A stretch of DNA of 48,217 bases from positions 1-48,217 of IMG/VR virus record IMGVR_UViG_3300027659_000052, one strand, 5' to 3'. The notes under the pieces were generated by a model, which saw only the letters and a list, made by a program, of their open reading frames with translations, ran no database searches and was not told the DNA's origin. Source of the DNA: a virus. The position numbers and the translations under genes were made by a program. Each line of letters begins with the position of its first letter. Positions within the stretch are counted from its first letter, which is position 1. Below, piece by piece: positions 10,685 through 42,623 of the stretch.

Positions 10685-11350
10685 ATGGCATATTCACGTG
10701 GTACGTCTACAAATATTATCGTAGGTGCAGCAGCAATTTTCGTTGCAGACTACAAACTTACACCAACAGGTGCAACAGCAATTCCATCATTTGTTGCTAC
10801 AGAGTCTTACAAATCTACACTTTCTGCAGACCCAGACTTTACAAATGTTGGCTATACAATGAATGGTCTTGAATTGACCTTCACACCAGATTTCGGCGAG
10901 GTAGCCGTAGATCAGGTTCTTGACGTTGCTAAACTATACAAGCAGGGAATGCAAGTTTCTCTTGCTACCGCTTTTGCCGAAGCAACATTAGAAAATTTAC
11001 TTCTTGCAACCGCAGGAAAAGATGCAGCATTAACTGGAACAAAGAATACATCAGCAGGTCGTACTCTTCAACTCTCAGCAGGAGATATTGGAGAAGTACC
11101 ACTTGAGCGTGGTCTTGTTGCATGTGGTCCAGGAACTGGTGATGGAGACAAGTCTGACTCAGTAGAGCGTGTATATGTTGGATATCGTGCTCTTTCAATT
11201 GAGGCAGTTACAGTTTCAGCAAAGCGTGAAGAGGCTTCTATGTTTGAAGTTTCATTCCGTATGCTTCCAGATGATTCAACAGCAACATACGGTAAGATCG
11301 TTGACCGTACCTTCTATGATGGATCTGGTACTAACTACGTCGGTGCCTAA
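10685..11350 (+). CDS. Major tail protein
   Basis: A 221-residue protein, the likely subunit of the tail tube. It starts MAYSRGTSTNIIVGAAAIFVADY and has features of tube subunits: an extended beta sandwich, a conserved-looking GYTMNGLELTFTPDFGEV and a C-terminal domain with VYVGYRALSIEAVTVSAKRE. AAAAAAGGAGTT just upstream sets the start. Every Arg codon read is CGT, as in the capsid protein and unlike the tail terminator, a sign of high expression. It is preceded by an extended -10 promoter and followed by a strong terminator, then by the chaperone and tape measure genes. Confidence 0.85.
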   Translation: MAYSRGTSTNIIVGAAAIFVADYKLTPTGATAIPSFVATESYKSTLSADPDFTNVGYTMNGLELTFTPDFGEVAVDQVLDVAKLYKQGMQVSLATAFAEATLENLLLATAGKDAALTGTKNTSAGRTLQLSAGDIGEVPLERGLVACGPGTGDGDKSDSVERVYVGYRALSIEAVTVSAKREEASMFEVSFRMLPDDSTATYGKIVDRTFYDGSGTNYVGA

Positions 11351-11367: not shown

Positions 11368-11404
11368 AACCCACTCTCATAACGGGAGTGGGTTTTGTTG
11401 TTTT
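11368..11404 (+). terminator. Rho-independent terminator after major tail gene
   Basis: Arms 11368-11378 and 11384-11394 pair in an 11-bp stem with one T-G wobble, with a 5-nt loop (11379-11383), followed by a T-rich tail TTGTTGTTTT. The next promoter starts at 11406. Confidence 0.85.
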
Positions 11405-11405
11405 A

Positions 11406-11414
11406 TGCTAAAAT
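11406..11414 (+). promoter_or_regulatory. Extended -10, TGC+TAAAAT, leaderless position
   Basis: TGC (11406-11408) followed by TAAAAT (11409-11414). The ATG at 11421 lies exactly 7 nt after the end of the hexamer, at the expected transcription start, so the mRNA would be leaderless. No Shine-Dalgarno sequence exists here. Confidence 0.6.
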
Positions 11415-11420
11415 TAACTA

Positions 11421-12140
11421 ATGGCTACAAAAGTTTTTAATGTTTCAGAAATTATATTATTAAACGGTCAAGCGCTATCTTGCTCTCCTTTAAAAATCAA
11501 GTACATGAGAGAGTTTATGGATATCTTTGTTCTTCTTGAAAAATCACAAAATGATGAAGAAGCCATAGATATTTTATTAGAATGTTGCAGGATATGTATG
11601 AAACAATACAGTCCAGATTTGTTTTTAGATTTAGACGAACATATTGATCTTAATACCCTATACGACATTATTGAAATTGCTGCGGGGATTAATATAAAGT
11701 CAAAAAATAAAGAAGCCACAGATCCTGACAAAGAAGAAACAAAACCAATTAAAGAGATTTCAAAAGATAAAGACCAAGGTTGGTTTGACCTAGATTTAGC
11801 CAAATTAGAGTCAGAGGTTTTTACTCTAGGAATATGGAAAAACTATGAAGAGTTAGAAACATCTCTTTCTATTCCAGAATTAATGCAAACGCTGTCTTCA
11901 AAAAGAGAATTAGATTATGAAGAAAAAAAGTTTTTAGCAGCAATTCAAGGGGTAGATTTAGATGACAACAAAGATAAAAACAGGGGACAAAAAGAATGGG
12001 AAGACATGAAAGCAAGAGTCTTCAGTGGTGGTCAAACAAATGATGGTAATGATGTGTTATCGTTACAAGGTCCAAATGCAACAAGAGCAGGGTTTGGCAT
12101 TGGAATGGGCTTAGATTATGAAGATTTAACTAAAAAATAA
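11421..12140 (+). CDS. Long tail assembly chaperone (G-T-like fusion)
   Basis: A 239-residue protein with two parts. Residues about 8-95 match the following shorter gene along their length (LNGQALSCSPLKIKYMREFM, ECCRICMKQYSPDL, DIIEIAAG) and correspond to the G-type domain. After a Lys/Glu/Asp-rich linker (about 95-115), residues about 115-185 resemble the T-type extension (LESEVFTLGIWKNYEELE, ELDYEEKKFLAAIQGVDLD). In most long-tailed phages the T part is added by programmed frameshifting; here it is fused in frame from an independent gene. No slippery site is evident. There is no ribosome binding site, the ATG lies at the predicted transcript start, and Arg codons are all AGA/AGG, so output should be low, fitting the small amount of G-T-like protein required. 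Confidence 0.75.
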   Translation: MATKVFNVSEIILLNGQALSCSPLKIKYMREFMDIFVLLEKSQNDEEAIDILLECCRICMKQYSPDLFLDLDEHIDLNTLYDIIEIAAGINIKSKNKEATDPDKEETKPIKEISKDKDQGWFDLDLAKLESEVFTLGIWKNYEELETSLSIPELMQTLSSKRELDYEEKKFLAAIQGVDLDDNKDKNRGQKEWEDMKARVFSGGQTNDGNDVLSLQGPNATRAGFGIGMGLDYEDLTKK

Positions 12141-12149
12141 ACGTATTTA

Positions 12150-12158
12150 TGCTATAAT
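12150..12158 (+). promoter_or_regulatory. Extended -10 promoter, TGC+TATAAT
   Basis: TGC (12150-12152) followed by a consensus TATAAT (12153-12158). Predicted start near 12165, giving a leader with AAAGGAG (12173-12179) before ATG 12186. It is nearer consensus than the promoter of the long chaperone gene. Confidence 0.7.
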
Positions 12159-12185
12159 TAACTAACTTAACAAAAGGAGAAACAA

Positions 12186-12515
12186 ATGGCAACAGCAGTA
12201 ACAGCAGCAGCAAAAGCGGACGAGAATGTAGTCGTTCTAATTGACGGAACAAAGATTTCAGTTAGACCGCTAAAGATCTCACTACTCCGTCCTTTTATGA
12301 AGAAATTTGAGGGTATTGCAGCAGTAGCAGAAGATAACGAGAAGTCAATGAACATCCTTATGGAATGTGTTCAAATTGCTATGCAACAGTACAAGCCTGA
12401 TTTGTCAGAAGACCTAAAGTCTCTTGAGGAAAATCTAGATTTACCTACAGTTTACAAAATTGTTGAAGCAGCATCTGGAACAAGTATTTCAGATAATGCT
12501 TTTATCAATATATAA
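12186..12515 (+). CDS. Short tail assembly chaperone (G-like)
   Basis: A 109-residue protein homologous by eye to residues ~8-95 of the preceding gene: LIDGTKISVRPLKISLLRPFM, ECVQIAMQQYKPDL, VYKIVEAASG. It lacks the T-like C-terminal domain entirely, ending shortly after the conserved block, and no alternative frame carries T-like sequence before the tape measure start at 12539. It has a strong AAAGGAG ribosome site and a consensus -10. It probably coats the tape measure protein and recruits tail tube subunits, acting in excess over the long form. Confidence 0.75.
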   Translation: MATAVTAAAKADENVVVLIDGTKISVRPLKISLLRPFMKKFEGIAAVAEDNEKSMNILMECVQIAMQQYKPDLSEDLKSLEENLDLPTVYKIVEAASGTSISDNAFINI

Positions 12516-12538: not shown

Positions 12539-15500
12539 GTGGCTGATGTACAATCGAATATTCAAGTTAATCTTGATGCCTCTCAAGCACTTGCACAACT
12601 AAAAGCACTTCAAAGACAACTTGCAACTTTTCATTCTTCAGTTGCTACTACAAGTACTGCTGCTGCAAAAGCGCAAGCAAGTTTACAAAGCAATCTTATA
12701 AATTCAGTAAATGCTACTGGAAAATTTGCAGCAAGCCTTACAACAATAAAAAGTTCTGCTGATAGTTTTACTGACTCATTAGAAAGAAACAAGTTTTCCA
12801 CTAGAGAATATTTTAGGTATGCTGGTGGTGCAACAAAAACATTTGGAAGACTTTTTAAAACAGAATTTGACACAATTGGCAAGGTAGCAGAAGAACGTGT
12901 TAAAACAATGCAAACCCAATATATTAAAATGGGTAGAGATGCAAATGGTGCAATCAGGGCTATAGCGGTAAAACCTCTTGCATTGGATATGAACAACCTT
13001 GCAACTAAAACTGCCTTGGCTGCACAAAAACAACAATTATTTAATCAATTAATGAAACAGGGATCTACCAATCTTTTAAATTTTGGTAAAAATACTCAAT
13101 GGGCTGGTCGTCAGTTAATGGTTGGTTTTACCGTTCCATTAACAATGCTTGGAATGACAGCAGGAAAAACATTTATGGCATTGGAAAAACAAGCAATTAG
13201 GTTTAAACGTGTATATGGAGAAATGTTTACAAGCACTGCAGAAACAGAAAGAGCATTTAAAGACATTGAGTTGTTAGCAAAATCATTTACAAAGTATGGT
13301 GTTGCAGTTGAAAAAACATTAGAAATGGCTGCTGATGCTGCAGCAACTGGCAAGATGGGTGCTGATTTAATGGCACAGGTTGCACAAGCAACAAGGCTTG
13401 CAGTTCTTGGTGGAGTTGAACAAGAAGAGGCTCTAAGAACTACTATATCATTAACAAATGCTTTTGGAATAGCAGCAGATCAATTAAAGAATAAAATTGA
13501 TTTTCTTAACGCTGTAGAAAACCAAACAGTATTAAATATTGAAGACTTGACTATAGCAGTTCCTAAAGCAGGACCAGTTATTAGACAACTTGGTGGAGAT
13601 GTTGAAGACCTTGCATTCTTTATGACTGCAATGAAAGAGGGTGGCATTAATGCTTCAGAAGGTGCCAACGCATTAAAGTCTGGTCTTGCATCATTAATTA
13701 ATCCATCAAAGAAAGCATCCGCATTTCTTTTAGATTTAGGCGTTAACATTAATGGAATTGTTGAATCAAACAAGGGAAACATTAAAGATACTGTTATTCA
13801 ATTTGCACAAGCACTTGATACACTTGCCCCATTAGAACGATCAAGAGCAATCGAACAACTATTTGGCAAGTTTCAGTTTTCAAGACTTTCAACATTATTT
13901 CAAAACATTACAAAAGACGGAACGCAGGCTGCAAGAACATTAGGATTAGCAGGAGCATCTGTTGAAGAACTTGCTATTTTGTCAGAACGAGAACTTAGAA
14001 AAATAGAAGATGCAACTGGAACTAAATTTAAAAAATCAATAGAAGATTTAAAAGTTTCTTTAATGCCAGTAGGAAAAGAATTTATTAAAGCATTAACTCC
14101 AATAGTAGAATTTATTGGAAAAATATTAGAAAAATTTAATGGATTAAGTGACGGTGCAAAAGCAAGAATTACTAAATTATTGCTATTGTTAGGTATTATT
14201 GGACCAGCCGTTTTAATGACGTTTGGTTTAGTTGCAAATGGTGTAGCAAACATTCTTAAACTATTTGTTACTTTAAGAAAAGGTTTTTTTGGTCTTGGGG
14301 GCCAGAGTAAAACACTTGGGCAACAAATTCAATACATGTCTTCTGAACAAATTGAAGCAGCAACTGTTGCTGCATCTCTTAATCAAGCGCATTCTAGATT
14401 AAGACAAACTTTTCTTCTAGAGGCTGCTTCCTTAAATACATTAACCACAGCATATCAAAAAGGAATGATTGCAGCAAATAATTTTGCAAGAACAAATCCA
14501 GGAATGATGAAACCAGGATTTAGACCAGGTGCTCCTAAGAAGTTTGCAGATGGAGGTTGGGTTCCAGGAACGGGAAATAAAGATACAGTTCCAGCAGTAT
14601 TAACTCCAGGAGAGTTTGTTGTAAAAAAAGATGCAGCACAAGAAAATAAAGGATTTTTACAAAGATTAAATAAAGGCGGATTTGTTTTACGTAATGATGG
14701 AACTGGAACATTTAAAAACATACAAGATCCTTGGGCTGGAGAAGTAAAGGGAGGGCCAAAATACGATCCAACATTGCCAAAATTTGTACCAGGATCAATA
14801 GAGTATGCTAAAGCCTTTGTTGCACAACAGGCATTGGAAATGGAAAGTGAAAAACGTAGAATTGAATTTGAAAAAGACATAAGAAAAAATCAAAGCAAAC
14901 GACCAACCAAAAAACCAACACCAGTAAACCGAGATTGGGTTGCATGGGCAGCCGATCAGGATGCCAGAGAAGCAGCAGCAAAGGTTGCAGCACATGCAAA
15001 GAAGGTAGCAGAAAAAGAAGCATACAGGGCAAAACAATATAAACAAAGAGAAATAAAAAGACAATTTAGACCAGGAATAACAGAAAGACAAATAGGATAT
15101 GCTAAAACTCTTGCTGCAAAAACTCAAGATCAAATGGCACTTAAAACTCAAAGCCTATTTTTAGGATTGCCAAATAGCAATAAACAAGTTCAAGATATAA
15201 GACAACAAGATGCAGTACTAGATCAAATTGATAATGAAATTAGAAGTGGCAATCTTGATAAAATTAAACCAACAAATTTTGGAAAAATGATTGCAGAATC
15301 AACTGGAAGAAGTTTTCCAGTTCCTGGAATTGGCGGTATTTATGAAAGACCAGATGGGTCTAAAGTTTTTGTTAAACCATTCTTAGATGAAAAATCTGCT
15401 GTAGCAGAAGAACGTGGAACAACAATTCAAAGAGATGCTCATGACATTGTTGCACCAAATCAAAAGTTAAGTACAATGATTGATCCAAACAATCCAGATA

Positions 15501-18500
15501 GAAAATTAATTGTTTTACAATCTCCATTTGATCCAAGGTTTGCAGAGATGACTGGAGAATTTACAGAATCTGATTTTGTTAAACAAACAATTTCTGCTAT
15601 TGTTAGAGGAGACAAAGATTTATCAAAAGCAAATGTGTCTGGAGATCGTGTTTCTGATGTGGGAACTTCTGGAGTTTTTGCAACGGCATCTGCAAAACTT
15701 CCTGGAGAAAGACAATTTGGAGGAATGTTACCAGTAAGAGATCAAGCAATGGTAAACTTCTTAGGAGTTAATGGCGGTGCAAAAAGACATTTTGCTGATG
15801 CAACAAGATCAATAGCACAATCAATGACTCCTGCACAATATGAAAGAGCAATGTTAGATGAATTAGATAGAGTAATTCCTAAACTAAAAACTACTATTGC
15901 AGGTTTTGGTAATCTTACTCCAGAGGAAAAAGTTGCTTACGCTGAAATGGTGCAAAGAGCAGAAGATGCTAAAAATATTGACTGGAAAGAAATTCATAAA
16001 GTACACGTTGAAGCAAAAGTTCCAAAGATTAAAAAACCAAAAATTAAAGCCACTGAAAAAGCAGGAAAAAGAGGCCATAGGGTTTCAATTAAAGATCCAG
16101 CATTTAGAAGGTTATTAGTTGCTAGAGGGTTTGCTCCAAGAAGTCAAGGTCCTGAAAATCAAGTTGGTTATGACCGTGAAGCAGATAAATTAAAACTTTT
16201 AGAATATCCACCAAATGCGACTGAAGTAGTAGGATCGGCAGCAAATCAAACTGAAAAACTACACCTTCTAGGCGGTGACGCATCAATTTTTCATGATTCA
16301 GATCATCGTTTAGCCGGAATGAAAATTGATGAAGGATTTACTACTATGGGAAATCATGGTTATAATCAAACAACTGAAAAATCAACGTATAGACGTCTTG
16401 GTCTTCCATCTCCATATCCACTGACTTATGATGATGCGCTACGTGCACAAGCAATACTTGTAGAACAATTAGAAAGAGAGGCAGAGGATGCATATAAACG
16501 GATTGAAAGAAGAGGCCACCTTAGCAATCCACCAGAGCCACCAGTTAATGATCAGAGTAGAATAAGATTTGCAGAAAAAAATCAAATGGCAAGATTGGCT
16601 TTAGCAGACATTAGAACAAATTTAGAACTTTTTCCAGATGATGCTAGTTGGAAAGCCCAACAAAAAATTAGATACCAACATGCTGGTGCATCTGCTGCTG
16701 GAGATCCTGGTACAGATGAATATAATCGTTCTTTTACTAGATTGGGAGAGTCCTTTGACCGGGCTTCAGGAGCGGGTAACACAAGCGCTATTGTAAACTC
16801 TTTAATACGTGAGCAGAGAGACCATGTTGCTGCAGTAATTGCTTCTCGTGATAGACAAAATCCACTAACAGAACTTGATTTAACAAATAGCGACAGAAGA
16901 GACACCCTTGGCAAATTAAAAGATGCTAGAACACATATAGGCTCACGAGTAGTAAGGTTTCCAACCAATCTTGATAGAAATATAGAAGCAGATTTAATAA
17001 GTTTTATGGATAACCCAGACGCCATACTAAGTGAAATGAAAACGGATAAAGATACTGCTAGTGCACAAGTTAAAAGTGCACAAACACATTTAACATCAAT
17101 AGAAGAATCCGGCACACCAGACCAAATAAGACTTGCAACAGATGCATTAAATGACGCAATAAGGATACAAGATGATGCTCAGATAAGAAGAGACAATTTA
17201 TTAGCAAGAGGTGTTGAAGCCTTAAATGATGAAAACGGAAATCCAATTTTAAAAACTTTGCCAAGTAGTCCACAAGGTAGAAAAATTATTCCTGCAGTAG
17301 CGGATGAAAAAGGAACTCCAAGAAGTAAATCAAAACCCAATACTCTAATACTTCCAGGACTGGATTATCAAGGCGTAACTGGTACTGGTACAAGTATCGA
17401 AAGAATAGTAGCAGGAACAGGCCCAGGCGCACCAACACTAAATTATCAAAAAATACCTAGTACTGTTACAAATAAAGTAAAAATAAATAATCCAAACATA
17501 CAGGGTTATCTGCGCCAAGCAATGGATTCCCGCCAATCATTGGGAAGATTTGCTAACAATTCTTTACAGGGCGTACAAAGATTGGCAAAAGGTGGTTCTG
17601 TTTCAGGGTATGGAGAAAAAGACACTGTACCAGCATTACTAACACCTGGAGAATTTGTAGTAAATAAAAAGGCTACACAAGAAAATGGTCCAATTCTTGA
17701 AGCAATGAACTCTGGTAAAGTTCAATATAGAGCCAGTGGGACTCCTAGCATATTTGATGATCCTGAGCCTATCCGATACTATCCAAATCCATACGATGAA
17801 ATTGGAAAATCTGGACAAAGTAACACTTATTCAAAACCTGTTGATAATCCATTTGCAGATATTGGTAAATCAATTGACAAACCAATGAAAAAAACTGCTA
17901 TAAAATTTGCTGGAACAATTTCAAAAAAACTTGAAACCTCTATTCCAAAAATTGGTAAAAATCTTGGCAATGTAATAAACGAGGTTATGGCCGATAGAAT
18001 GGCGATTAGAGCGGCACAAGACGCATATGATGATGACGAATATGATGAACCAACAAAACAAAGCCAACGGCAAGAGAATCCAAAAAAGGGTAGAGTCTCT
18101 AACCCAGATCCTAGACTTGCTCAAGTCTATGCAACACAAGATAGAGTTAATGCTGATTTTGAAAAAGAAAAACAAAAATATACAAAAAAACCTACAAGAA
18201 AAGAAAAACGAATAACAAAAAGACAACAAAGAATTGAGAAATTTGAGAAAAAACCTCAAAACCCAATGAGAGGGCAGATTGCTAGCGGAGGTTTAATGGC
18301 TGCTGGTATGGGAATGGGAATGATTTCTGCAACATCACCAGACAGTACGGCAGGCAAAATCTCTTCACAATTGGCACCAATGGCTATGGCCGGATCTATG
18401 ATTGCTCCAATGATTGGAAAACCTTCGGGTGCAGTATTAGGACCACTTGCTGCTTTGGGAGGAGCACTAATTATGCTTAGAATGCAATTTGATAAAGCAC

Positions 18501-21500
18501 AGGATGCTGCTTTAGAATTAGGAGAAGCAACTGGTACTAGTACTAAAGCAATTCAAAGTTTTGCAGAGTTTGCAGGAAAAGCCACTGGAACAGAAAGAAT
18601 GGACAGAAAAAGACTTGCAGATAGAGGACAACTTGTTGCTGCAACTGGAAAAACAACATTTGGAGAGGCTTTTGTTCAATCTGAAGCAGGACAAAAAGTA
18701 GGAAAGAATTTTCAAGAAAATCTTAAGAAAAATGGAAGAGCGCAAGCACAAAGTGATCTAAAGGCACAGTTAGTAACTTCAGTAATGTCAGGGGCATTAA
18801 ATGCAGAACAAGCACAATCTATTGCAGCAAACATAGGAGCATCTCTAGGAGATGCACCAATTGGAATTCAAATTGCTGGAGAACTTCAAGGAATTTTTGG
18901 TAAAAATGGAAGAGATATAACAAAAGATGGAATTGAAATACAAACCCAATTAATGGCAGATTCTTCGACTAAAACAAAAAATTCTATAACTGCCCTTAAT
19001 CAAGACACTGCAGGAATACGTGGAATGGATAGCCAGATAGTGACTGGTGGAATGGTAGCAGCAGGTATGGGATTAGGTGCCGCTGCAGGTGCAACGTTAG
19101 GTACAATGATTGCTGGACCGATTGGTACTGGTGTTGGATTATTAGTTGGAACAGCAATTGGTGGAATTGCTGGAGGAGTTTCGGCATACTTTGCAAATAA
19201 AGGAAATGTTGAAAAAATTGGAAAACTTTCTGGTGCAGCAGTTGCTGACGCAACAGCAATGTTTGAACAATCTAAACAATTACTAGACGCATATGAAGCA
19301 GAATATAATCAACGCAGAGAACAACTAGTGTTAGAAGGAAAACTTTCAAAGGTTAGAGAACTAGATGATAAATATATCAAAAATAGAGAAAAAATTACTA
19401 ATGGACAAATTAAACAAAGAGAAGAATTTTTAGCAGCATACAAGAGTACAACTGGAGAAGGAAGAAAAGGATTTGATGATGCTCTTGACAAACAAATGAC
19501 AAGAAAGTATAAAGGTACTGCACAAGAACTATATGTTACTAAAGCAAAAGATGATTTAAGAGACCAGGTAAAAGCAGGAACCGTAACTTCTGCACAAGCA
19601 GCAGCATTAAAAGTTCAAGTAAATGCTGGAGAACTTGGCCCAGGAGATTTGTCTAAAATGTTTCAAGTTTTTTCAAGTCCAACCGATATTGCTACCATGC
19701 TTACGATATCAGCAAAATTTGGAGGAGAAGAAACAGCAGCAATAACTGATATTGTTTCTCAATTTAGAGATCAAAATGGAAACCCAATTCCAGCACTTAA
19801 CACTAAGTTTGCGCTTCAGATGAAAGGTAAAACCGATGAACAGGCTCAAGAGGCTATAAAAACATTCCAAGGAATCACTGCATTGGGTGGAGTTATGAAC
19901 CTTGATACCGAAATTGATTATATTTTAAAAAATGAAAACGTTCAAAAAGAAATATCAAAAGATTTACAGGCAATTAAAGACAATAAAGGAAAACCATTTA
20001 CTACTACATTTTTAAATACAATTGATGCAAGATTTACCAACACTTATGATTCAGAATATTTTAAAAAACTTTCAGAAAATGAAAAAGCAGTTTATGTTAG
20101 TACAATGTCAACATTGTTGAATATTAAAGATGAAGTTCTTATAAACGATCCAGGCTTTTTAACATGGCAAAAAGAAACAGGACCATTGGGTGGTGCTCAA
20201 TATAGCAATTTATCACCACCAGCACAACTTGCTAAATATAGAGACGCATACAGTCAAAAAGTTACAAGCGTTTCAGTAGATACATCTTTAGCAACAGATG
20301 GACAAAAGAAGACTGGCGGTGGTCAAAGAGTTACGCTATTTGATGAAACATTAAAAAAACTTAAACAAGTTCAAAGAGCAAGTGTTAATGCAATGGGTGG
20401 AGAAAAAGAACTTATCAAACAAGTAATGGGAAAAAATGCAATTAAATATGGTGATGGAGAAGGTGTTGATCAAAAACTTCTTAAAGATAATAAAGTAAGT
20501 GGTGAGTTCTTAGAGTTTGTTGATTCTCTGGGCCCAGAAGGAATACAAAAAGATTTGAAAAAATTTGTAACAATTGGTAAAAATGGAATTGCAACACTTA
20601 CCCAAGCAGGTAAAGCATTACAGAAAGCCTTTGGACTTATAAAATTTGGTGAAAAAATAAAAGATATTCAATTACAAAAACAAGAACTTAAAAATAGAAT
20701 TGTTGCAATGAGAGTTTTATTAAAATTAGGATTTGATAATGCAACTGCAACTTCTCTTGCAGCAGAATCAGCAACTGCCCTTGCTATTGCTACTGGTCAA
20801 ATATCTGTTCAAGATTTAAAAAATTACAAAAAAGATATGAAAGGATTAACAGACCTACAAACAGATGCAGCAAGAATACAAGATATAGCACAAAAAACGG
20901 GAATAGAAGGAGATATTGCAAGAGCAGAGGGTTTGAAAAAAATTGTTGAAGCACAAGAAGCATTAATTGAAGGCCAATATCTTTTAGAAAGAACAGCATT
21001 AGACACACAAAAATCAGAAAATGATTATGGATTAGATTTGATTGCAAGGGAAGAAGATAAAGTAAATGAAGTTTATGACAAACAAATAGAATCTTTACAA
21101 GAGATTAATCGTCTTGCTGAAAAGAATAATGCTTTAATTTTAACAAGAATGTCACTTGCTGATGCCCTTGCATCAGGAGACATTGGTGCAGCAAGTGCTG
21201 CAATGCAAGAGTACCGAAATGCAAAAATTCAACAAGTTGCAAGAACAAGAGAAGAAGCATTACAAAAAGCAAAAGAAAATGCAATTAAAAATATTACCGT
21301 AACTAACAGCAAAACTGGTAAGATAAGCACAAGAGAAGATTTAGAAAAATTAAACAAAGAAATAGATGGAAAACTTGCAGATATAGATGAAAAAATTAGA
21401 TTACAAAAAGAACAACTTAGTGTTCAATTAAAGGCAGCAAGTGGAATGACTACAGCCCAAGTTAATGAGTTTGCAAAAACTGGTCAACTTTTAATTGACG

Positions 21501-22315
21501 CATATGGAGTAGATGCTGCTAATAAAATGGCGAAAGGTTTATATAATACATTAAATGGACAGGCAGGTGCCTTTAATACAACAATTGCTCAAGGAACCAC
21601 AAACCTAATGACTTTTATTGCACAACTACAAGCAGCAAGAGCAGAAGCAGGAAGGGCAGATTTTACAGGAGCCGTTCCAAAGGATCCAGGATATCTTGGA
21701 GTCCCAGGTTTAAATGCAGATGGAACTTTTGATCCTAAGACGGCTGCATCACCACCTTATGAAACTTCGACTCCACCATCAAAAGCACCTGCTGGCCCAA
21801 GTGGTTCAAAGTCCAGTGCTTCTACACCCAAAACACCAGTTGTAAAAGTAGGAACAACCCCAACCTTTGTAAGTCCTAATGCTGCTGACAACGCTGTTAA
21901 AAAAGCCGCTGCTGCTAAAAAACCAGTGGCAAAAATTCCTCCTTGGGTAAAATTTGCATCTGGTGGAATAGTTCCTAAATACATGGCATCTGGTGGTCTG
22001 GCTCGTGGAACTGACACCGTACCAGCAATGCTTACTCCTGGAGAATATGTTATAAATAAAGATGCAACACAAAAATTTGGCCCGTTGCTCAGTGCTATTA
22101 ATTCCCCAACATTTAAAACTCCAACATCTTCTAACCCAAATTTTTCAGGTATTAACTCTTCAAGCAACATAACAAGCACAAATAATTCCAAAACCCTGTA
22201 TAATTATAACCTTAGCGTTAATGTTTCTAACAGTAATGCAAATCCAAATGATATTGCACGAACGGTTATCAATCAAATTAAGATGATTGAAGATCAAAGA
22301 ATTAGGAGATATTAA
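12539..22315 (+). CDS. Tail tape measure protein, very large (3258 residues)
   Basis: It sets tail length and is ejected with DNA. Residues about 210-480 match the TP901-type tape measure domain (RFKRVYGEMFTSTAETERAF, GMTAGKTFMALEKQAIRF, DLGVNINGIVE). Hydrophobic Gly/Ala/Leu-rich segments occur at about 542-575, and twice more near 1920-1985 and 2170-2220, which may be membrane-interacting. Three copies of a GG..DTVPAxLTPGEFV motif lie at about 669-714, 1682-1726 and 3139-3188. Between copies 1 and 2 there is a ~970-residue insertion with a possible kinase-like segment (IGGIYERPDGSKVFVKP, about 930-947). Helical coiled regions fill about 2250-3080. The start is GTG 12539 with AGAGG 8 nt upstream; an overlapping ATG at 12535 reads only four codons to a stop. 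The gene follows both chaperones. Confidence 0.92.
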   Translation: MADVQSNIQVNLDASQALAQLKALQRQLATFHSSVATTSTAAAKAQASLQSNLINSVNATGKFAASLTTIKSSADSFTDSLERNKFSTREYFRYAGGATKTFGRLFKTEFDTIGKVAEERVKTMQTQYIKMGRDANGAIRAIAVKPLALDMNNLATKTALAAQKQQLFNQLMKQGSTNLLNFGKNTQWAGRQLMVGFTVPLTMLGMTAGKTFMALEKQAIRFKRVYGEMFTSTAETERAFKDIELLAKSFTKYGVAVEKTLEMAADAAATGKMGADLMAQVAQATRLAVLGGVEQEEALRTTISLTNAFGIAADQLKNKIDFLNAVENQTVLNIEDLTIAVPKAGPVIRQLGGDVEDLAFFMTAMKEGGINASEGANALKSGLASLINPSKKASAFLLDLGVNINGIVESNKGNIKDTVIQFAQALDTLAPLERSRAIEQLFGKFQFSRLSTLFQNITKDGTQAARTLGLAGASVEELAILSERELRKIEDATGTKFKKSIEDLKVSLMPVGKEFIKALTPIVEFIGKILEKFNGLSDGAKARITKLLLLLGIIGPAVLMTFGLVANGVANILKLFVTLRKGFFGLGGQSKTLGQQIQYMSSEQIEAATVAASLNQAHSRLRQTFLLEAASLNTLTTAYQKGMIAANNFARTNPGMMKPGFRPGAPKKFADGGWVPGTGNKDTVPAVLTPGEFVVKKDAAQENKGFLQRLNKGGFVLRNDGTGTFKNIQDPWAGEVKGGPKYDPTLPKFVPGSIEYAKAFVAQQALEMESEKRRIEFEKDIRKNQSKRPTKKPTPVNRDWVAWAADQDAREAAAKVAAHAKKVAEKEAYRAKQYKQREIKRQFRPGITERQIGYAKTLAAKTQDQMALKTQSLFLGLPNSNKQVQDIRQQDAVLDQIDNEIRSGNLDKIKPTNFGKMIAESTGRSFPVPGIGGIYERPDGSKVFVKPFLDEKSAVAEERGTTIQRDAHDIVAPNQKLSTMIDPNNPDRKLIVLQSPFDPRFAEMTGEFTESDFVKQTISAIVRGDKDLSKANVSGDRVSDVGTSGVFATASAKLPGERQFGGMLPVRDQAMVNFLGVNGGAKRHFADATRSIAQSMTPAQYERAMLDELDRVIPKLKTTIAGFGNLTPEEKVAYAEMVQRAEDAKNIDWKEIHKVHVEAKVPKIKKPKIKATEKAGKRGHRVSIKDPAFRRLLVARGFAPRSQGPENQVGYDREADKLKLLEYPPNATEVVGSAANQTEKLHLLGGDASIFHDSDHRLAGMKIDEGFTTMGNHGYNQTTEKSTYRRLGLPSPYPLTYDDALRAQAILVEQLEREAEDAYKRIERRGHLSNPPEPPVNDQSRIRFAEKNQMARLALADIRTNLELFPDDASWKAQQKIRYQHAGASAAGDPGTDEYNRSFTRLGESFDRASGAGNTSAIVNSLIREQRDHVAAVIASRDRQNPLTELDLTNSDRRDTLGKLKDARTHIGSRVVRFPTNLDRNIEADLISFMDNPDAILSEMKTDKDTASAQVKSAQTHLTSIEESGTPDQIRLATDALNDAIRIQDDAQIRRDNLLARGVEALNDENGNPILKTLPSSPQGRKIIPAVADEKGTPRSKSKPNTLILPGLDYQGVTGTGTSIERIVAGTGPGAPTLNYQKIPSTVTNKVKINNPNIQGYLRQAMDSRQSLGRFANNSLQGVQRLAKGGSVSGYGEKDTVPALLTPGEFVVNKKATQENGPILEAMNSGKVQYRASGTPSIFDDPEPIRYYPNPYDEIGKSGQSNTYSKPVDNPFADIGKSIDKPMKKTAIKFAGTISKKLETSIPKIGKNLGNVINEVMADRMAIRAAQDAYDDDEYDEPTKQSQRQENPKKGRVSNPDPRLAQVYATQDRVNADFEKEKQKYTKKPTRKEKRITKRQQRIEKFEKKPQNPMRGQIASGGLMAAGMGMGMISATSPDSTAGKISSQLAPMAMAGSMIAPMIGKPSGAVLGPLAALGGALIMLRMQFDKAQDAALELGEATGTSTKAIQSFAEFAGKATGTERMDRKRLADRGQLVAATGKTTFGEAFVQSEAGQKVGKNFQENLKKNGRAQAQSDLKAQLVTSVMSGALNAEQAQSIAANIGASLGDAPIGIQIAGELQGIFGKNGRDITKDGIEIQTQLMADSSTKTKNSITALNQDTAGIRGMDSQIVTGGMVAAGMGLGAAAGATLGTMIAGPIGTGVGLLVGTAIGGIAGGVSAYFANKGNVEKIGKLSGAAVADATAMFEQSKQLLDAYEAEYNQRREQLVLEGKLSKVRELDDKYIKNREKITNGQIKQREEFLAAYKSTTGEGRKGFDDALDKQMTRKYKGTAQELYVTKAKDDLRDQVKAGTVTSAQAAALKVQVNAGELGPGDLSKMFQVFSSPTDIATMLTISAKFGGEETAAITDIVSQFRDQNGNPIPALNTKFALQMKGKTDEQAQEAIKTFQGITALGGVMNLDTEIDYILKNENVQKEISKDLQAIKDNKGKPFTTTFLNTIDARFTNTYDSEYFKKLSENEKAVYVSTMSTLLNIKDEVLINDPGFLTWQKETGPLGGAQYSNLSPPAQLAKYRDAYSQKVTSVSVDTSLATDGQKKTGGGQRVTLFDETLKKLKQVQRASVNAMGGEKELIKQVMGKNAIKYGDGEGVDQKLLKDNKVSGEFLEFVDSLGPEGIQKDLKKFVTIGKNGIATLTQAGKALQKAFGLIKFGEKIKDIQLQKQELKNRIVAMRVLLKLGFDNATATSLAAESATALAIATGQISVQDLKNYKKDMKGLTDLQTDAARIQDIAQKTGIEGDIARAEGLKKIVEAQEALIEGQYLLERTALDTQKSENDYGLDLIAREEDKVNEVYDKQIESLQEINRLAEKNNALILTRMSLADALASGDIGAASAAMQEYRNAKIQQVARTREEALQKAKENAIKNITVTNSKTGKISTREDLEKLNKEIDGKLADIDEKIRLQKEQLSVQLKAASGMTTAQVNEFAKTGQLLIDAYGVDAANKMAKGLYNTLNGQAGAFNTTIAQGTTNLMTFIAQLQAARAEAGRADFTGAVPKDPGYLGVPGLNADGTFDPKTAASPPYETSTPPSKAPAGPSGSKSSASTPKTPVVKVGTTPTFVSPNAADNAVKKAAAAKKPVAKIPPWVKFASGGIVPKYMASGGLARGTDTVPAMLTPGEYVINKDATQKFGPLLSAINSPTFKTPTSSNPNFSGINSSSNITSTNNSKTLYNYNLSVNVSNSNANPNDIARTVINQIKMIEDQRIRRY
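14543..14680 (+). repeat. Tape measure DTVPAxLTPGEFV motif, copy 1
   Basis: Residues about 669-714 include GGWVPGTGNKDTVPAVLTPG and EFVVKK. This motif type recurs in many tape measure proteins. It is copy 1 of 3. Confidence 0.8.
17582..17716 (+). repeat. Tape measure DTVPAxLTPGEFV motif, copy 2
   Basis: Residues about 1682-1726 include GYGEKDTVPALLTPGEFVV followed by NKKATQENGP. It marks the downstream edge of the long insertion and is copy 2 of 3. Confidence 0.8.
21953..22102 (+). repeat. Tape measure DTVPAxLTPGEFV motif, copy 3
   Basis: Residues about 3139-3188 include RGTDTVPAMLTPGEYVI and NKDATQKFGPLL, near the C-terminus. It is copy 3 of 3 and also carries a preceding GG segment (FASGGIVPK). 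Confidence 0.8.
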
Positions 22316-33962: not shown

Positions 33963-34619
33963 ATGAGCGTAGTAAAGGGACTAAAAAACATCAACGCCCT
34001 GCTCGACAAACCAAAATACGATGAAAACTCACCAAAGGTAAGATGGCTTAAACTTGCTGATGGACAATCAGTAAAGATTCGCTTTATTGAAGAACTAGAC
34101 GAAGACTCTGCAAATTATAGTGCATCTCGTGGTCTATCTTTAGTTGTTAAAGAACACGTAAATCCAAAAGATTACAAACGCAAAGCAGTAGATACTATGG
34201 AAACAGAAGGTCGTGACTGGGCAGAAGAAATGCACCGTAAAGACCCAAAGGCTGGATGGCGTGGTCGTCTCCGCTTTTACTGTAACGTATTAGTTGATGA
34301 TGGAATTGAAAAACCATACGTAGCCATTTGGTCTATGGGAATTAGCAAGCAATCATCCTTTAATACAATTCGTGAATATGCACTTGAGACTGGTAGCATT
34401 TCAAATGTTGTTTGGAAAATGAAGCGTAATGGTCAGGGTACTGAAACAAATTACACAATGATTCCAGCAGCACCAGACAAGGAACCATTTGATTGGGCTG
34501 GAATTGAGCCATTTCCAATTGAACTTGCACTTCGCAAAGTTCCTTATGCAGAACAAGAAGCCTTTTATCTAGGCTTTGACTCACCATCAACTACTTCATC
34601 AACCAATACAGATTGGTAG
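33963..34619 (+). CDS. Single-stranded DNA-binding protein (phage type)
   Basis: A 218-residue protein resembling the ssDNA-binding family of actinophages: MSVVKGLKNINALLDK, then RWLKLADGQSVKIRFIEELD, a central RGRLRFYCNVLVDDGIEKPY, AIWSMGISKQSSFNTIREYA, and PYAEQEAFYLGFD near the end. The Ser/Thr/Asn-rich tail ends TNTDW, an acidic-aromatic tip of the kind used for partner binding. Arg codons are mainly CGT/CGC, indicating strong expression, in line with the consensus promoter upstream. Assignment is from memory of the family and should be checked. Confidence 0.7.
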   Translation: MSVVKGLKNINALLDKPKYDENSPKVRWLKLADGQSVKIRFIEELDEDSANYSASRGLSLVVKEHVNPKDYKRKAVDTMETEGRDWAEEMHRKDPKAGWRGRLRFYCNVLVDDGIEKPYVAIWSMGISKQSSFNTIREYALETGSISNVVWKMKRNGQGTETNYTMIPAAPDKEPFDWAGIEPFPIELALRKVPYAEQEAFYLGFDSPSTTSSTNTDW

Positions 34620-34620
34620 T

Positions 34621-37600
34621 ATGAACTACGCAGGATTACACGTACACACTCACTATTCTCTGTTTGATGGAATTGCAACTCCAGAAGAGTATCTAAGTCG
34701 TGCCGTAGATCTTAAAATGCCAGCATTGGCAATAACAGATCACGGCACACTTTCAGGACATCGTGAGTTTTATCGTACGGCAAAATCCAAAGGCATTAAG
34801 CCAATTCTAGGTCTAGAAGGATACATGTGTGCAGACATATCTGATACAAGAGATAAGTCTGAAAGAGAAGGTCAACAAGACCTTGTTTATAATCACATTA
34901 TTCTTCTAGCAAAGAACCAGATTGGTTTAGAGAATTTAAATAAAATTAGCGAAGTTTCTTGGACTGATGGGTTTTTTAAGAAACCAAGATTTGATTTTGA
35001 AATACTTGAAAAATATCGTGAAGGTATTATTGTAACTTCAGCATGTCCAAGTAGTGTTATTGTAAAAGCATTAGAAGAAAATGAATTTGCTATTGCAAAG
35101 AAAAATATTAAATGGTTTAAGAATAATTTTGGTAGTGATTATTATATTGAAGTAATGCCACACAATACCCCAGAAATAAATAAGGCTTTAATTGAACTTG
35201 CAGATGAATTTGACATTAAGGTTGTTGTAACTCCAGATTGCCACCATTCAGATACATCACAAAAAGAAATCCAAGAGTTTAAGTTATTGATGAATACTCA
35301 TGGAAAAGTTAACAAAGAAGCCACATACGAAAAGTCTAAAAAGAAAACTAATATGATGCAAAGACTTGATTACCTGTATGGTGAAGATCGTCAAATTACT
35401 TTTAATAAGTTTGACATACATTTATTATCATATGATGAAATCAAGTTGGCAATGGAAAAACAGGGGATAGATAGACCAGACATATATTCAAATACATTAT
35501 TACTGGCAGATACAGTAGAAGACTACGATATTCAAGATGGACTTGACCTTTTACCAGTTCAATATAAAAGTCCAGATAGTGAATTAGAAAAGATTGCGTT
35601 TGAAGGTTTAACACTTAAAGGTCTGCAAGATAATGAAGAATATGTTAATAGATTACGTGAAGAGTTAGAGATTGTTAAAAATAAAAAATTTGCACCATAC
35701 TTCTTAGTTGTTCAAAGCATGATTGCTTGGGCAAAGAAGGAAGGAATTATGGTAGGTCCAGGTCGTGGATCGTCTGCTGGATCTTTAGTTTGTTTTACAC
35801 TTGGAATTACAGACATAGATCCAATTAAATATGGACTGCTGTTCTTTCGTTTTATTAATCCTGAACGAAATGATTTTCCAGATATTGATACCGATATTCA
35901 AGATACTCGTCGTGAAGAAGTAAAAGATTATTTGGTTAGACAATATAGACACGTTGCATCTATTGCCACCTTCTTAGAGTTTAAAGGCAAGGGTGTCGTT
36001 AGAGATGTTGCTAGAGTTTTAAATATTCCTTTGTCAGATGTAAACAAAGCGCTAAAGCAAGTTGACACATGGGAAGATTTTTGTTATTCAAAAACAACTT
36101 TATGGTTTAGAGAAAAATATCCAGAAGTAGAAGTGTATGGAGATCAGTTGCGAGGACGTATTCGTGGAACTGGAATTCATGCTGCAGGAGTTGTAACAAG
36201 CAAGAACCCAATTTTTAGATATGCACCACTAGAAACACGATCATCTCCAGGATCAGACGAAAGAATTCCAGTAGTCGGTGTTGACATGGAAGAAGCAGAA
36301 AGAATTGGTTTAATTAAGATTGACGCACTTGGATTAAAAACTCTTAGTGTTATTCAAGATGCTATTGCAGAAATTAAAAAGAATCATTACAAAGAAATTA
36401 ATTTATTAGAAATTGATTTAGAGGATTCTAAAGTTTATGAAATGATTTCAGATGGATATACTAAAGGGGTTTTTCAATGCGAGGCTGCACCATACACAAG
36501 CCTTTTAATTAAAATGGGTGTAAAGAATCTAAATGAACTTGCAGCATCTAACGCACTTGTTCGTCCAGGAGCAATGAATACTATTGGCAAAGATTACATT
36601 GCAAGAAAACATGGTAAGCAAAATATTGATTATTTAAATAAGGTTATGAAACCCATTACAATTGATACATATGGTTGTGTTTTGTATCAAGAGCAGGTTA
36701 TGCAAGCCTGTGTTGAACTTGGTGGAATGACAATGGCAGAAGCAGACAAGGTACGTAAAATTATTGGAAAGAAGAAAGATGCTAAAGAATTTGATCAGTT
36801 TAAAGAAAAGTTTGTTAATGGTGCTTCTAAGTACATTAGTCCTAATTCTGCTTTGGATTTATGGCATGACTTTGAAGCACATGCGGGGTATTCGTTCAAC
36901 AAGTCTCATGCGGTTGCTTACTCTACGGTCTCGTATTGGACCGCTTGGTTAAAGTATTATTACCCACTTGAATTTATGTTTGCCCTTTTAAAAAATGAAA
37001 AGGATAAAGATGGAAGAACTGAGTATCTTATTGAAGCGAAAAGAATGGGCATTAGCATTAAGTTACCTCACATTAACGATTCGGATATGGATTTTAAAAT
37101 TGAGGGTAAAGGTATTAGATTTGGACTTAGTTCTGTTAAATATATATCTGACAAGATTGCAGAAAGATATATCCAAGCGCGACCATTCACATCATACAAA
37201 CAACTTGAAGAATTTACTTTTACAAAAGGAAACGGAGTAAACAGCAGAGCCTTACAGTCACTAAGGATTACTGGTGCTGCTACCTTTTCTGATAACCCAA
37301 GAAATGATCAAGAGATCAAAGAAAATTTATATGAGTATTTAAATTTGCCAGAATTTAATATGACAGTGCCAACACAATATCATTCATTCATTCAATCAAC
37401 AGAAGATTTTGAAGAAAAAGGATCTTTTATTTTAATGGGAATGATTAAATCAATTAAAAGAGGCACAGGATGGTCTCGTGTTGATGTGTTAGACAAAACG
37501 GGATCAATTGGAATATTTGATGATGAAAACACCACTATTGAGATTGGTAAAACTTATTTGTTATTAGCATCTGATAATAGAATTGTTTCTGCTATACCAG

Positions 37601-37896
37601 TTGATGAAATTAAAACTTCACCGAATGCTTTAGTTAGATTTTTAAATTATAAGCAATTGCCATTTGCAGAAGAAGAGATGTTTGTGATATCATTTAAACC
37701 AAGAACAACAAAAACTGGAAAGAAGATGGCATTATTAACTTTAGCAGATTCATCAAGAGACTTACATTCTATAACAGTATTCCCAACATCTTTTGCAAAA
37801 GCCTATATGCATATTAAAGAGGGCAATACCTATAAGTTTGATTTTGGCAAAACAAAAGATGGGACTATAACTTTGGAGGATGTTCATGTCAGTTAG
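34621..37896 (+). CDS. dnaE: DNA polymerase III alpha subunit (DnaE-like)
   Basis: A 1091-residue C-family polymerase. The PHP domain starts almost at the N-terminus (HVHTHYSLFDG, H7, H9, H11; ITDHGTLSGH). The palm has GPGRGSSAGS (about 379-388) and the catalytic aspartates PDIDTD (D423, D425). Also visible are the YQEQVMQ and KSHAVAYSTVSYWTAW motifs typical of the family. The C-terminus (about 920-1090) appears to hold an OB-type domain (FILMGMIKSIKRGTGWSR). ATG 34621 is the conservative start; an upstream in-frame ATG at 34576 lies within the SSB-like gene. Length is slightly below bacterial DnaE (~1160). No ribosome site is evident, suggesting coupling to the SSB gene. Confidence 0.93.
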   Translation: MNYAGLHVHTHYSLFDGIATPEEYLSRAVDLKMPALAITDHGTLSGHREFYRTAKSKGIKPILGLEGYMCADISDTRDKSEREGQQDLVYNHIILLAKNQIGLENLNKISEVSWTDGFFKKPRFDFEILEKYREGIIVTSACPSSVIVKALEENEFAIAKKNIKWFKNNFGSDYYIEVMPHNTPEINKALIELADEFDIKVVVTPDCHHSDTSQKEIQEFKLLMNTHGKVNKEATYEKSKKKTNMMQRLDYLYGEDRQITFNKFDIHLLSYDEIKLAMEKQGIDRPDIYSNTLLLADTVEDYDIQDGLDLLPVQYKSPDSELEKIAFEGLTLKGLQDNEEYVNRLREELEIVKNKKFAPYFLVVQSMIAWAKKEGIMVGPGRGSSAGSLVCFTLGITDIDPIKYGLLFFRFINPERNDFPDIDTDIQDTRREEVKDYLVRQYRHVASIATFLEFKGKGVVRDVARVLNIPLSDVNKALKQVDTWEDFCYSKTTLWFREKYPEVEVYGDQLRGRIRGTGIHAAGVVTSKNPIFRYAPLETRSSPGSDERIPVVGVDMEEAERIGLIKIDALGLKTLSVIQDAIAEIKKNHYKEINLLEIDLEDSKVYEMISDGYTKGVFQCEAAPYTSLLIKMGVKNLNELAASNALVRPGAMNTIGKDYIARKHGKQNIDYLNKVMKPITIDTYGCVLYQEQVMQACVELGGMTMAEADKVRKIIGKKKDAKEFDQFKEKFVNGASKYISPNSALDLWHDFEAHAGYSFNKSHAVAYSTVSYWTAWLKYYYPLEFMFALLKNEKDKDGRTEYLIEAKRMGISIKLPHINDSDMDFKIEGKGIRFGLSSVKYISDKIAERYIQARPFTSYKQLEEFTFTKGNGVNSRALQSLRITGAATFSDNPRNDQEIKENLYEYLNLPEFNMTVPTQYHSFIQSTEDFEEKGSFILMGMIKSIKRGTGWSRVDVLDKTGSIGIFDDENTTIEIGKTYLLLASDNRIVSAIPVDEIKTSPNALVRFLNYKQLPFAEEEMFVISFKPRTTKTGKKMALLTLADSSRDLHSITVFPTSFAKAYMHIKEGNTYKFDFGKTKDGTITLEDVHVS

Positions 37897-40309: not shown

Positions 40310-41125
40310 ATGACTAAAAGTTTACTACAACAAGTAATGGTAAAGCAAATAAAGGCAGAAAGTCACATAGATACTAAATCTTTAGTTGAGGCTATTGAAA
40401 AAGGTTATCTTGTAGGTCGTGATAAAAAGTTTGTTCAAAAGAAAACATTTGCTCCATCAACAATCGCTTATGGGTTTGGTGAGTGTGCTAGATATTGGTA
40501 CTTAGCCTTTGACGGCAACGAGTTTGATGACTTAACTACTCCATTCTCTGCTGCAAATATGGGTAATGGTACTTTATCTCATGGAAGAATTCAAGACGCA
40601 ATTCTTAATTCTGGAATAGCAAAAGTATTTACTGATGAAAAAACTGGCAAGCCAACAACTGAATTTAAAATTAGTAACCAAGATCCTCCAATCTTTGGAT
40701 ATGGAGATGGTATTTTAGTTATTAATGATGAAGAAGTTGTATTGGAAATTAAAACATGCGGAGAAGAAGCGTTTCAATATTATAAAAGAATGAATAAGGC
40801 TAAAAAGGGCCATCTTATTCAAATACTTTTGTATATGAAAATTCTTAAGAAAAAAGATGGAGTGTTACTATATGAAAATAAAAATAACCATGAACTTCTT
40901 GCAATTCCAGTAAGTGTAAATGATTACTACAGACAATGGATAGACAATACATTTAACTGGCTAAGAGAAGTACGCAAGGCTTGGGAAAATCGAACTCTTC
41001 CTAATAAAAACTATCGTGCAAATTCAAAAATTTGTAAGGCTTGTCCAGTCCAAAAGGCCTGCGCTGATGCAGGACCAGGAGTAATTAAAATTGCTCCACT
41101 AGAAGGTCTAAGTGAAGCCGTGTAG
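40310..41125 (+). CDS. Cas4/RecB-like iron-sulfur exonuclease
   Basis: A 271-residue protein of the PD-(D/E)XK nuclease group. Active-site residues: D133 (GYGDGIL), E146-x-K148 (VLEIKTC), and Q171-x3-Y175 (QILLYM). Four Cys, C59 and C242-x2-C245-x5-C251, would hold an Fe-S cluster. No CRISPR array or other Cas genes occur here, so it is likely a phage recombination nuclease processing double-strand ends with the recombinase. The next gene overlaps it by 14 nt. Confidence 0.75.
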   Translation: MTKSLLQQVMVKQIKAESHIDTKSLVEAIEKGYLVGRDKKFVQKKTFAPSTIAYGFGECARYWYLAFDGNEFDDLTTPFSAANMGNGTLSHGRIQDAILNSGIAKVFTDEKTGKPTTEFKISNQDPPIFGYGDGILVINDEEVVLEIKTCGEEAFQYYKRMNKAKKGHLIQILLYMKILKKKDGVLLYENKNNHELLAIPVSVNDYYRQWIDNTFNWLREVRKAWENRTLPNKNYRANSKICKACPVQKACADAGPGVIKIAPLEGLSEAV

Positions 41126-41402: not shown

Positions 41403-41979
41403 ATGGGGTTTTGCTATTAAGCCAAAAAAAATATGCGCTATTGATGCTAGTACAAACAGCCTTGCATTTGCTTTATTTGAGAATGAAATTCTTGGGACAG
41501 TTGGTAAAATTAATTTTGAAGGTAACACAAATTATGAAAAGGTTATGGATGCATGCAATAAAACTAAATCATTTTTAGATCATTATGGAGGGTTTGAAGC
41601 CATAGTTATTGAACATACCGTGTTTATGAATAGTCCAAAGGTTGCTGCAGATTTAGCACTTGTTCAAGGAGCCTTGTTAGGAGCAGCAGGATTAACTGGC
41701 ACAAAAGTTATAGGAACAGTTTCTCCAATAACATGGCAAAACTTTATTGGTAATAAAAAAATTGATAAGGATGAAAAGTTTGCCATACGATTAGCAAATC
41801 CTGGAAAGTCAGAGTCTTGGTATAAAACCTATGAAAGAAATTTACGCAAAGAAAGAACAATAAGGTTTATTAATATGCAGTATGATAGATCTATAACTGA
41901 CAACGATGTAGCAGATGCTTGTGGTATTGGGCATTGGGCTATAAAAAACTGGGATAAAGCAATAGGAGTTGACAAGTAA
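41389..41979 (+). CDS. RuvC-like junction resolvase
   Basis: A 196-residue RNase H-fold protein. Catalytic acidic residues: D19 (CAIDASTNSLAF), E75 (AIVIEHTVF), and the late pair D173/D176 (DNDVADACGIGHWA). Matches the RuvC pattern. Resolves branched DNA generated in replication and recombination, supplying unbranched DNA to the terminase. Start ATG 41389 overlaps the previous gene by 14 nt. Confidence 0.75.
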   Translation: MNKNKWGFAIKPKKICAIDASTNSLAFALFENEILGTVGKINFEGNTNYEKVMDACNKTKSFLDHYGGFEAIVIEHTVFMNSPKVAADLALVQGALLGAAGLTGTKVIGTVSPITWQNFIGNKKIDKDEKFAIRLANPGKSESWYKTYERNLRKERTIRFINMQYDRSITDNDVADACGIGHWAIKNWDKAIGVDK

Positions 41980-42623
41980 TGCCAGAGTTAAATGCAAACA
42001 TACCACCGATTTCGTGTTATGTAAGAGGAAACTATTTAAGAAATCATAAAGACAGTCACGACAAATATTTTGAGTGCGTAGTCTTTGGTGTTTCAAGTTT
42101 AAAGTCTAGAAGTCCACTATTTCATATAATGATGCCAGATGGTGGTCTTTGGTGGAGGCTTCCAATTTCTGCTTTCTGTACAGAGCCAGGAGTTCCTGAA
42201 GCAGATCTTCACAATTTAGTTTTGTGGAATTCTTTTAGTCATCATATTGCTGTAACTCAGTTTGAAAATTTAACTAACCTTAGAATGTCTTATATAGATA
42301 GAACAAAAACAATGCATAAGGGAACATATTTGTTTACATTGGACTGGCATAACCCAGATACAAATGTTTTAGATGATGGGTATTCAGAAAGTCCAGCAGA
42401 CCATAAGTGTGGGCATGTTATACAAAGAGACGATGGAAACTTTGCTATTCAACCTAATAATAGAGTTCGTATCTATGAACCATCATTTACTCTTGAAAAA
42501 GAATACTTAATTGACAGAATAATCAATGAAAGAAAATATGATGTTGAAAATCAAGATAAATGGATTATGGAAAACTCAGATAGATTTGATTATGATATTA
42601 ACTTAAACGAAGTTGACAAATAA
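41979..42623 (+). CDS. Conserved-looking protein, unknown function
   Basis: A 214-residue protein starting MPELNANIPPISCYVRGNYL. Distinctive segments are GGLWWRLPISAFC and YLFTLDWHNPDTNVLDDGYS, followed by HKCGHVIQRDDGNFA. The HKCGH and other His residues could bind metal, but no family is recognised. The start lies on the upstream stop (TAATG). Its place between RuvC-like and small regulatory genes gives no further clue. Confidence 0.55.
   Translation: MPELNANIPPISCYVRGNYLRNHKDSHDKYFECVVFGVSSLKSRSPLFHIMMPDGGLWWRLPISAFCTEPGVPEADLHNLVLWNSFSHHIAVTQFENLTNLRMSYIDRTKTMHKGTYLFTLDWHNPDTNVLDDGYSESPADHKCGHVIQRDDGNFAIQPNNRVRIYEPSFTLEKEYLIDRIINERKYDVENQDKWIMENSDRFDYDINLNEVDK

Follow-up and report, generated by a model that had tools for sequence, protein, structure and literature searches.

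How does a long-tailed phage produce the two forms of its tail assembly chaperone (TAC), the abundant G and the scarce G-T, when each form appears to have a gene of its own? In lambda, G binds the tape measure protein and T binds the tail tube protein, and a frameshift yields G and G-T at a ratio of ~30:1 that is crucial for tail assembly; T4 aside, few recoding events of tailed phages are conserved as widely as this one (PMC5009743). We studied a locus with two neighbouring TAC genes in an uncultured phage, using a whole IMG/VR contig of 48,217 bases with a GC content of 34%, which we call the window. Our reading is that the two genes together are the TAC system of this phage, that a gene duplication replaced the frameshift, and that the excess of G over G-T is set by initiation. 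We put the probability of this whole explanation at about 0.83.

The pair lies between the genes for the major tail protein and the tape measure protein, all on the plus strand. The major tail protein gene (10685..11350) matches phrog_2175 (E 2e-32) and, at E 6e-4, phrog_885, major tail protein; its homologue in a Streptomyces phage carries the annotation major tail protein. The tape measure protein gene (12539..22315, 3258 aa) likewise has a Streptomyces phage homologue that is annotated as such, and the protein contains the motif DTVPAxLTPGE[FY]V[VI] in three spaced copies. Downstream of the major tail protein gene is an intrinsic terminator (11368..11394) with an 11-pair stem and a T-rich tail. 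It is followed by a predicted extended -10 promoter, TGC-TAAAAT (11406..11414), which is separated by a 6-nt spacer from the ATG of the long TAC gene (11421..12140, 239 aa). This gene is of the TAC-NC type and encodes G-T in a single in-frame ORF: the G (TAC-N) domain occupies 11421..11717 (phrog_10504, residues 1-99, E 8e-16), and the T domain follows in the same frame at 11781..12137 (phrog_10474, residues 138-199, E 3e-15). The short TAC gene (12186..12515, 109 aa) is of the TAC-N type and encodes G (phrog_10504, E 1.5e-17). It is preceded by a second predicted extended -10 promoter, TGC-TATAAT (12150..12158), 27 nt 5' of the ATG, and the sequence contains a Shine-Dalgarno element, AAAGGAG, at 12173..12179. 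As in the window, a TAC pair was flanked by the genes for the major tail protein and the tape measure protein in 150 of the 168 records that we looked at first; the remaining records were contig-end cuts or single-copy loci.

A preliminary description of this DNA had proposed that the two genes are TAC paralogues sharing about 85 residues, and that only the first has T-like motifs in its C-terminal region. Both proposals hold. The two proteins are 41% identical across 86 residues in BLASTP (E 2e-20), and family profiles of the long (n=54) and short-type (n=65) proteins align over 98 columns in hhalign, with a probability of 100 and an E-value of 9.5e-40. The homologous stretch corresponds to the first ~90-100 residues. 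In the comparison with G and G-T family profiles, a check that the description had called for, both proteins match the same family, phrog_10504, and phrog_10474 is matched by the long protein only. The C-terminal region of the long protein also matches the frameshifted T ORF of Streptomyces phages, and a T-like motif, KKFLAAIQGVDLD, in the long protein is the counterpart of KKFMAALKGVDLE in T of Streptomyces phage Coruscant. Homology to T here means homology to the T ORFs of Streptomyces phages, which were the comparison set, and not to lambda T.

Structures were predicted for both proteins, as had also been suggested, and were compared with a viral library using Foldseek. The short protein, in a model of middling confidence, has a tail assembly chaperone as its best match (E 8e-6). 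The long protein matches a tail assembly chaperone at E 2e-4 and an Arthrobacter phage Kitkat protein at 2e-3; the same predicted structure has no match in the PDB. Sequence searches of Pfam, NCBIfam and PDB gave nothing usable, the NCBIfam tail chaperone match being weak (E 0.0047, in 3 of 54 proteins).

To see how the locus is organized in relatives, we queried IMG/VR with the long, short, T domain and single-copy G proteins and scanned the loci obtained with G and T profiles. The resulting 260 distinct loci exist in two states. In 198 loci, G and T are fused and share one frame without a stop, which is not the layout of a programmed -1 frameshift. The preliminary description had recommended looking for the same arrangement in related phages, and a second G is indeed found downstream in 192 of these 198 loci; in the other 6, the contig ends too soon to tell. 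The remaining 62 loci contain just one G, no second G, and a T that lies in the -1 frame. Among the 260 loci, there is no mixed one, i.e., neither a slip state with a second G nor an uncut fused locus that lacks the second G.

Among named phages, those of Streptomyces (~127 records) and a few of Rhodococcus are the closest relatives. In them, G and T are two distinct ORFs, which frequently bear the annotation tail assembly chaperone. Prokaryote genome contigs yielded one relative only (L248), with a single G, T in the -1 frame and the heptamer CCCAAAC. It comes from a MAG titled uncultured cyanobacterium (CAINGU010000031.1), and could be a prophage, a phage contig or misbinned. Three single-copy G proteins (L186, L187 and L228) carry a ~30-residue insertion midway through the G domain.

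In a tree of G domains, the long G domains (54) form one clade and the short G domains (54) form another, with support of 96/95 and 98/98, respectively, in a careful subset. The short clade is placed close to the single-copy G domains found in the closest frameshifters. The long clade sits on a long stem of 0.7 changes per site, and long G evolves faster. This faster evolution could indicate that the long gene left the chaperone pair for a new role, with the short gene serving tail assembly alone or together with a distant T. We consider such a change of role unlikely, because T is conserved as much in the fused genes as in the frameshift genes, with W, E, F, G, W and K invariant, and because dN/dS values of 0.02-0.14 in the long gene imply purifying selection. 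Moreover, the pair of G-T and G is never split in uncut loci, and another T was not detected in the loci examined. Across both genes, ten pairs gave dN/dS values of 0.00-0.21, again indicating purifying selection. When near relatives with two-gene loci are compared, the short gene often shows a lower dS than the long gene, as is expected if the codons of the short gene are under stronger constraint.

A tree of T alone (122 columns) requires 5 state changes, of which only 1 is forced; it was judged too short for placing the switch between states. A four-gene marker tree, built from the major tail protein, the N-terminus of the tape measure protein and two neighbours (984 columns, 92 rows), was used instead. 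In this tree, the 50 rows with the two-gene state group in one clade (SH-aLRT 100), which is nested among frameshifters. Together with the lack of mixed loci, this position supports the original idea that two paralogous genes replace a frameshift. Given that there is a single two-gene clade, and that the long and the short G domains are each one clade, one duplication appears to have replaced one frameshift. As judged from these sequences, the simplest history would be a single tandem duplication of a frameshifting gene, of which one copy was fused in frame and the other lost T.

The reverse history would start from an ancestral two-gene state, and frameshifting would have arisen through loss of one copy. 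The trees leave some room for it, in that their rooting was by outgroup choice and a clade uniting long and short G lacks positive support: when the two are constrained to one clade, the result is neither rejected nor positively supported (AU p 0.39). However, we regard an ancestral two-gene state as very unlikely. The two-gene loci fall in a single nested clade. In the distant outgroups that we looked at (phages of Streptomyces and of Rhodococcus), T either lies in the -1 frame or is annotated as joined, and frameshifting is also common among other long-tailed phages (PMC5009743).

Slip sites follow the same division into two states. An X XXY YYZ heptamer occurs near the end of G in 51 of the 62 loci with T in the -1 frame (GGGAAAC in 34, CCCAAAT in 11, CCCAAAC in 5 and GGGAAAT in 1), and two loci have a second heptamer. 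The other 11 have CCCGGAA near the end of G, possibly a non-canonical slip site. These 11 loci (L163-L166, L168-L172, L174 and L177) belong to Karimac/Samisti-like Streptomyces phages and near relatives, and in many GenBank records, the T ORF is a separate hypothetical protein that is not joined to G.

In the two-gene loci, slip heptamers at the end of the short gene are present in 10 of 198 loci and are of scattered types, with none conserved. In the window, the stop codon of the short gene is 23 nt from the start of the tape measure gene (12539), which leaves no room for a T behind the short gene. The preliminary description was thus right that neither a slippery site nor an out-of-frame T comes after it. 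The G/T junction of the long gene likewise lacks a conserved heptamer: over the 40 codons that precede T, heptamers occur in only 32 of the 198 fused loci, and these are of mixed types, mostly A runs, in AT-rich sequence. The least likely alternative is that the long gene still frameshifts in the manner of dnaX at A AAA AAT (codon 94) to give a truncated G, the short gene being an extra; the window junction does read A AAA AAT AAA, where a -1 shift meets TAA immediately, but we rejected such truncation because the site is not conserved, the codon-94 heptamer being present only in the window and in one near relative (L005) among 50 representatives.

The preliminary description had reported a TAAAAT -10 and no Shine-Dalgarno element for the long gene, and TATAAT and AAAGGAG for the short gene. 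These signals are present in the window, and we found that the difference is kept across 54 representatives, for which 271 other ORF starts and shuffled sequences served as controls. Of the 54 representatives, 50 have TGN-TANNNT ahead of the long gene, its last base 5-9 nt (mode 6) from the ATG; the same holds for 2 of the 271 other ORF starts and about 1 of 54 in shuffles. Five or more Shine-Dalgarno bases occur before the long gene in only 5 of 54, and most of these overlap the -10 box. The hexamers are TAGAAT (12), TAAAAT (11), TATAAT (10), TACAAT (8), TATACT (8) and TAAACT (1). Since 10 of the 50 are a perfect TATAAT, the weaker -10 of the long gene is a tendency and not a rule.

Transcription usually starts 7 nt after the -10 hexamer. 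Given that the hexamer of the long gene ends 5-9 nt before the ATG, a leaderless mRNA is predicted. In the window, the hexamer ends 6 nt before the ATG, which accounts for the missing ribosome site, and transcription is predicted to begin at the A of the start codon.

The short gene has TGN-TATAAT 24-39 nt upstream in all 54 representatives; this signal was found before 1 of the 271 other ORF starts and at a rate of 0.07 per 54 in shuffles. A Shine-Dalgarno element of at least 4 matching bases is also present in 54 of 54. The single-copy G genes of frameshift loci have signals of the same type, with a TGN-10 at 22-43 nt in 41 of 42 and a Shine-Dalgarno element in 42 of 42. Therefore, the short gene seems to have kept the ancestral signal type. 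The promoter-like 16-mers TGCTAWAATTAACTAA have only two perfect matches in the window, both at the TAC pair. For this reason, and given the single occurrence of TGN-TATAAT among the other ORFs, we rejected the idea of a phage-wide late promoter.

A terminator-like hairpin is present at most 130 nt upstream of the long gene in 54 of 54 loci and of the frameshift-type G in 40 of 42, compared with 15 and 10, respectively, in shuffled sequences. With a limit of 60 nt, the terminator had seemed to be missing in frameshifters (2 of 42), a result that was overturned by the wider limit. Given that frameshifters share the terminator, it is ancestral and lies outside the switch. By contrast, no terminator was found within 60 nt before the short gene (0 of 54), which makes it probable that transcription of the long gene continues into the short one. 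One locus (L060) has ~700 nt inserted between the long and short genes, including an ORF that resembles a small methyltransferase. Its short gene retains its own promoter past the insert, which fits an independent unit.

From these signals, we propose how the two forms might be made. The ancestor would have produced both from one gene, with a small fraction of ribosomes shifting into the -1 frame at an X XXY YYZ heptamer, and the relatives would still represent this frameshifting state. In the window lineage, the gene would have been duplicated once. The upstream copy would have become a gene with G and T fused in frame, and its 5' leader would have disappeared, such that its promoter ends at the ATG and its mRNA is leaderless. 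The downstream copy would have lost T and the slip site but retained TGN-TATAAT, the ~27-nt leader and the Shine-Dalgarno element. The short gene would then supply the G that coats the tape measure protein, and the long gene would supply G-T, whose T domain recruits the major tail protein. G would exceed G-T via initiation, as the long gene has an on-average weaker -10 and lacks a Shine-Dalgarno element. The short gene would be read from its own promoter and probably also by read-through from the long gene.

The hosts are probably actinobacteria, judging from the relatives, and we assume that leaderless initiation is used here because these relatives infect Streptomyces and Rhodococcus. Leaderless reporters in M. 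smegmatis gave less protein and less mRNA than leadered ones (PMC7148126), although translation of leaderless genes in M. tuberculosis can be robust (PMC8485053). It is a tentative and somewhat doubtful suggestion that a stoichiometry fixed by slippage moved once, and stably, to an initiation route in which the scarce protein is leaderless and the abundant one uses a Shine-Dalgarno element. If this is true, the ratio of G to G-T would follow the balance of leaderless and Shine-Dalgarno initiation in the infected cell.

In both states, codon usage agrees with G being abundant and G-T scarce. The long gene of the window had been described as using only AGA and AGG for Arg, and it contains 4 AGA, 2 AGG and 0 CGN codons. 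This Arg bias is a general one. The CGY share of Arg codons is 0.88 in the major tail protein, 0.67 in the short gene, 0.22 in long G and 0.10 in long T. We also calculated codon scores with weights from the major tail protein versus the tape measure protein. In two-gene loci, these scores are -0.003 for short G, -0.355 for the long G domain and -0.254 for T. The short gene scores higher than the long gene in 54 of 54 loci (Wilcoxon p 1.6e-10, which is not literal because the loci are related). In frameshift loci, the scores are 0.002 for G and -0.253 for T, with G above T in 28 of 29, and T scores are equal in the two states (-0.25). The score partly tracks GC3, which is 0.24 in long G and 0.34 in the short gene. 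A third-base test that is neutral to GC failed to tell high and low reference genes apart and was uninformative.

The closest known systems are those of Stanwilliamsviridae (such as Streptomyces phages Yaboi, Coruscant and BillNye), which have a lambda-type G/G-T made through a -1 frameshift. The window locus has the same position between the major tail protein and the tape measure protein, and homologous G and T domains. As in the lambda type, short and long products have a common N-terminal domain. Unlike in the lambda type, the long product in the window is encoded by one in-frame gene and the short product by a second gene, and the window lineage has separate promoters and start signals and no conserved slip site. 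The gene order in this lineage is G-T, then G, then tape measure.

In T4, TAC-N and TAC-NC are made from separate genes (26 and 51). A 2022 study by Vladimirov, Gautam and Davidson (Virology 566:9-15) reportedly describes separate TAC genes in T4-like phages as a route other than frameshifting. It is cited in PMC12846349 and PMC12859696. The window resembles T4-like phages in having TAC-N and TAC-NC on separate genes, although the two are unrelated as far as known. In contrast to the T4-like case, both states occur here inside a single family. A single switch between them can be located on a tree, and the contrast between leaderless and leadered signals is conserved. Some Microbacterium phages, in some cluster EA subclusters, are described in a passage of PMC7302621 as lacking an evident frameshift. 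This passage mentions neither paralogous G domains nor promoters, whereas both genes of the window have a full G domain. The open-access literature that we searched contained no report of a switch within a family or of a leaderless/leadered contrast. Thus, separate TAC genes were already known from T4-like phages, but the documented switch and its promoter logic appear to be new.

The two-gene lineage is a large one, made up of uncultured phages whose nearest relatives make both forms by frameshift; the phage collection yielded no cultured member of it. It would constitute a natural experiment in which the frameshift was given up and replaced by gene duplication with diverged start signals. 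The existence of close relatives in both states could permit direct tests of whether a fixed ratio, co-translation from one mRNA or slippage itself is what matters.

Some other genes in the window are worth noting. Positions 34576-37896 encode a full-length, bacterial-type DNA polymerase III alpha subunit, and positions 40310-41125 encode a Cas4-like/PD-(D/E)XK nuclease. The gene at 41979-42623, which is without a Pfam match, matches a PHROG named ferredoxin (E 1e-59).
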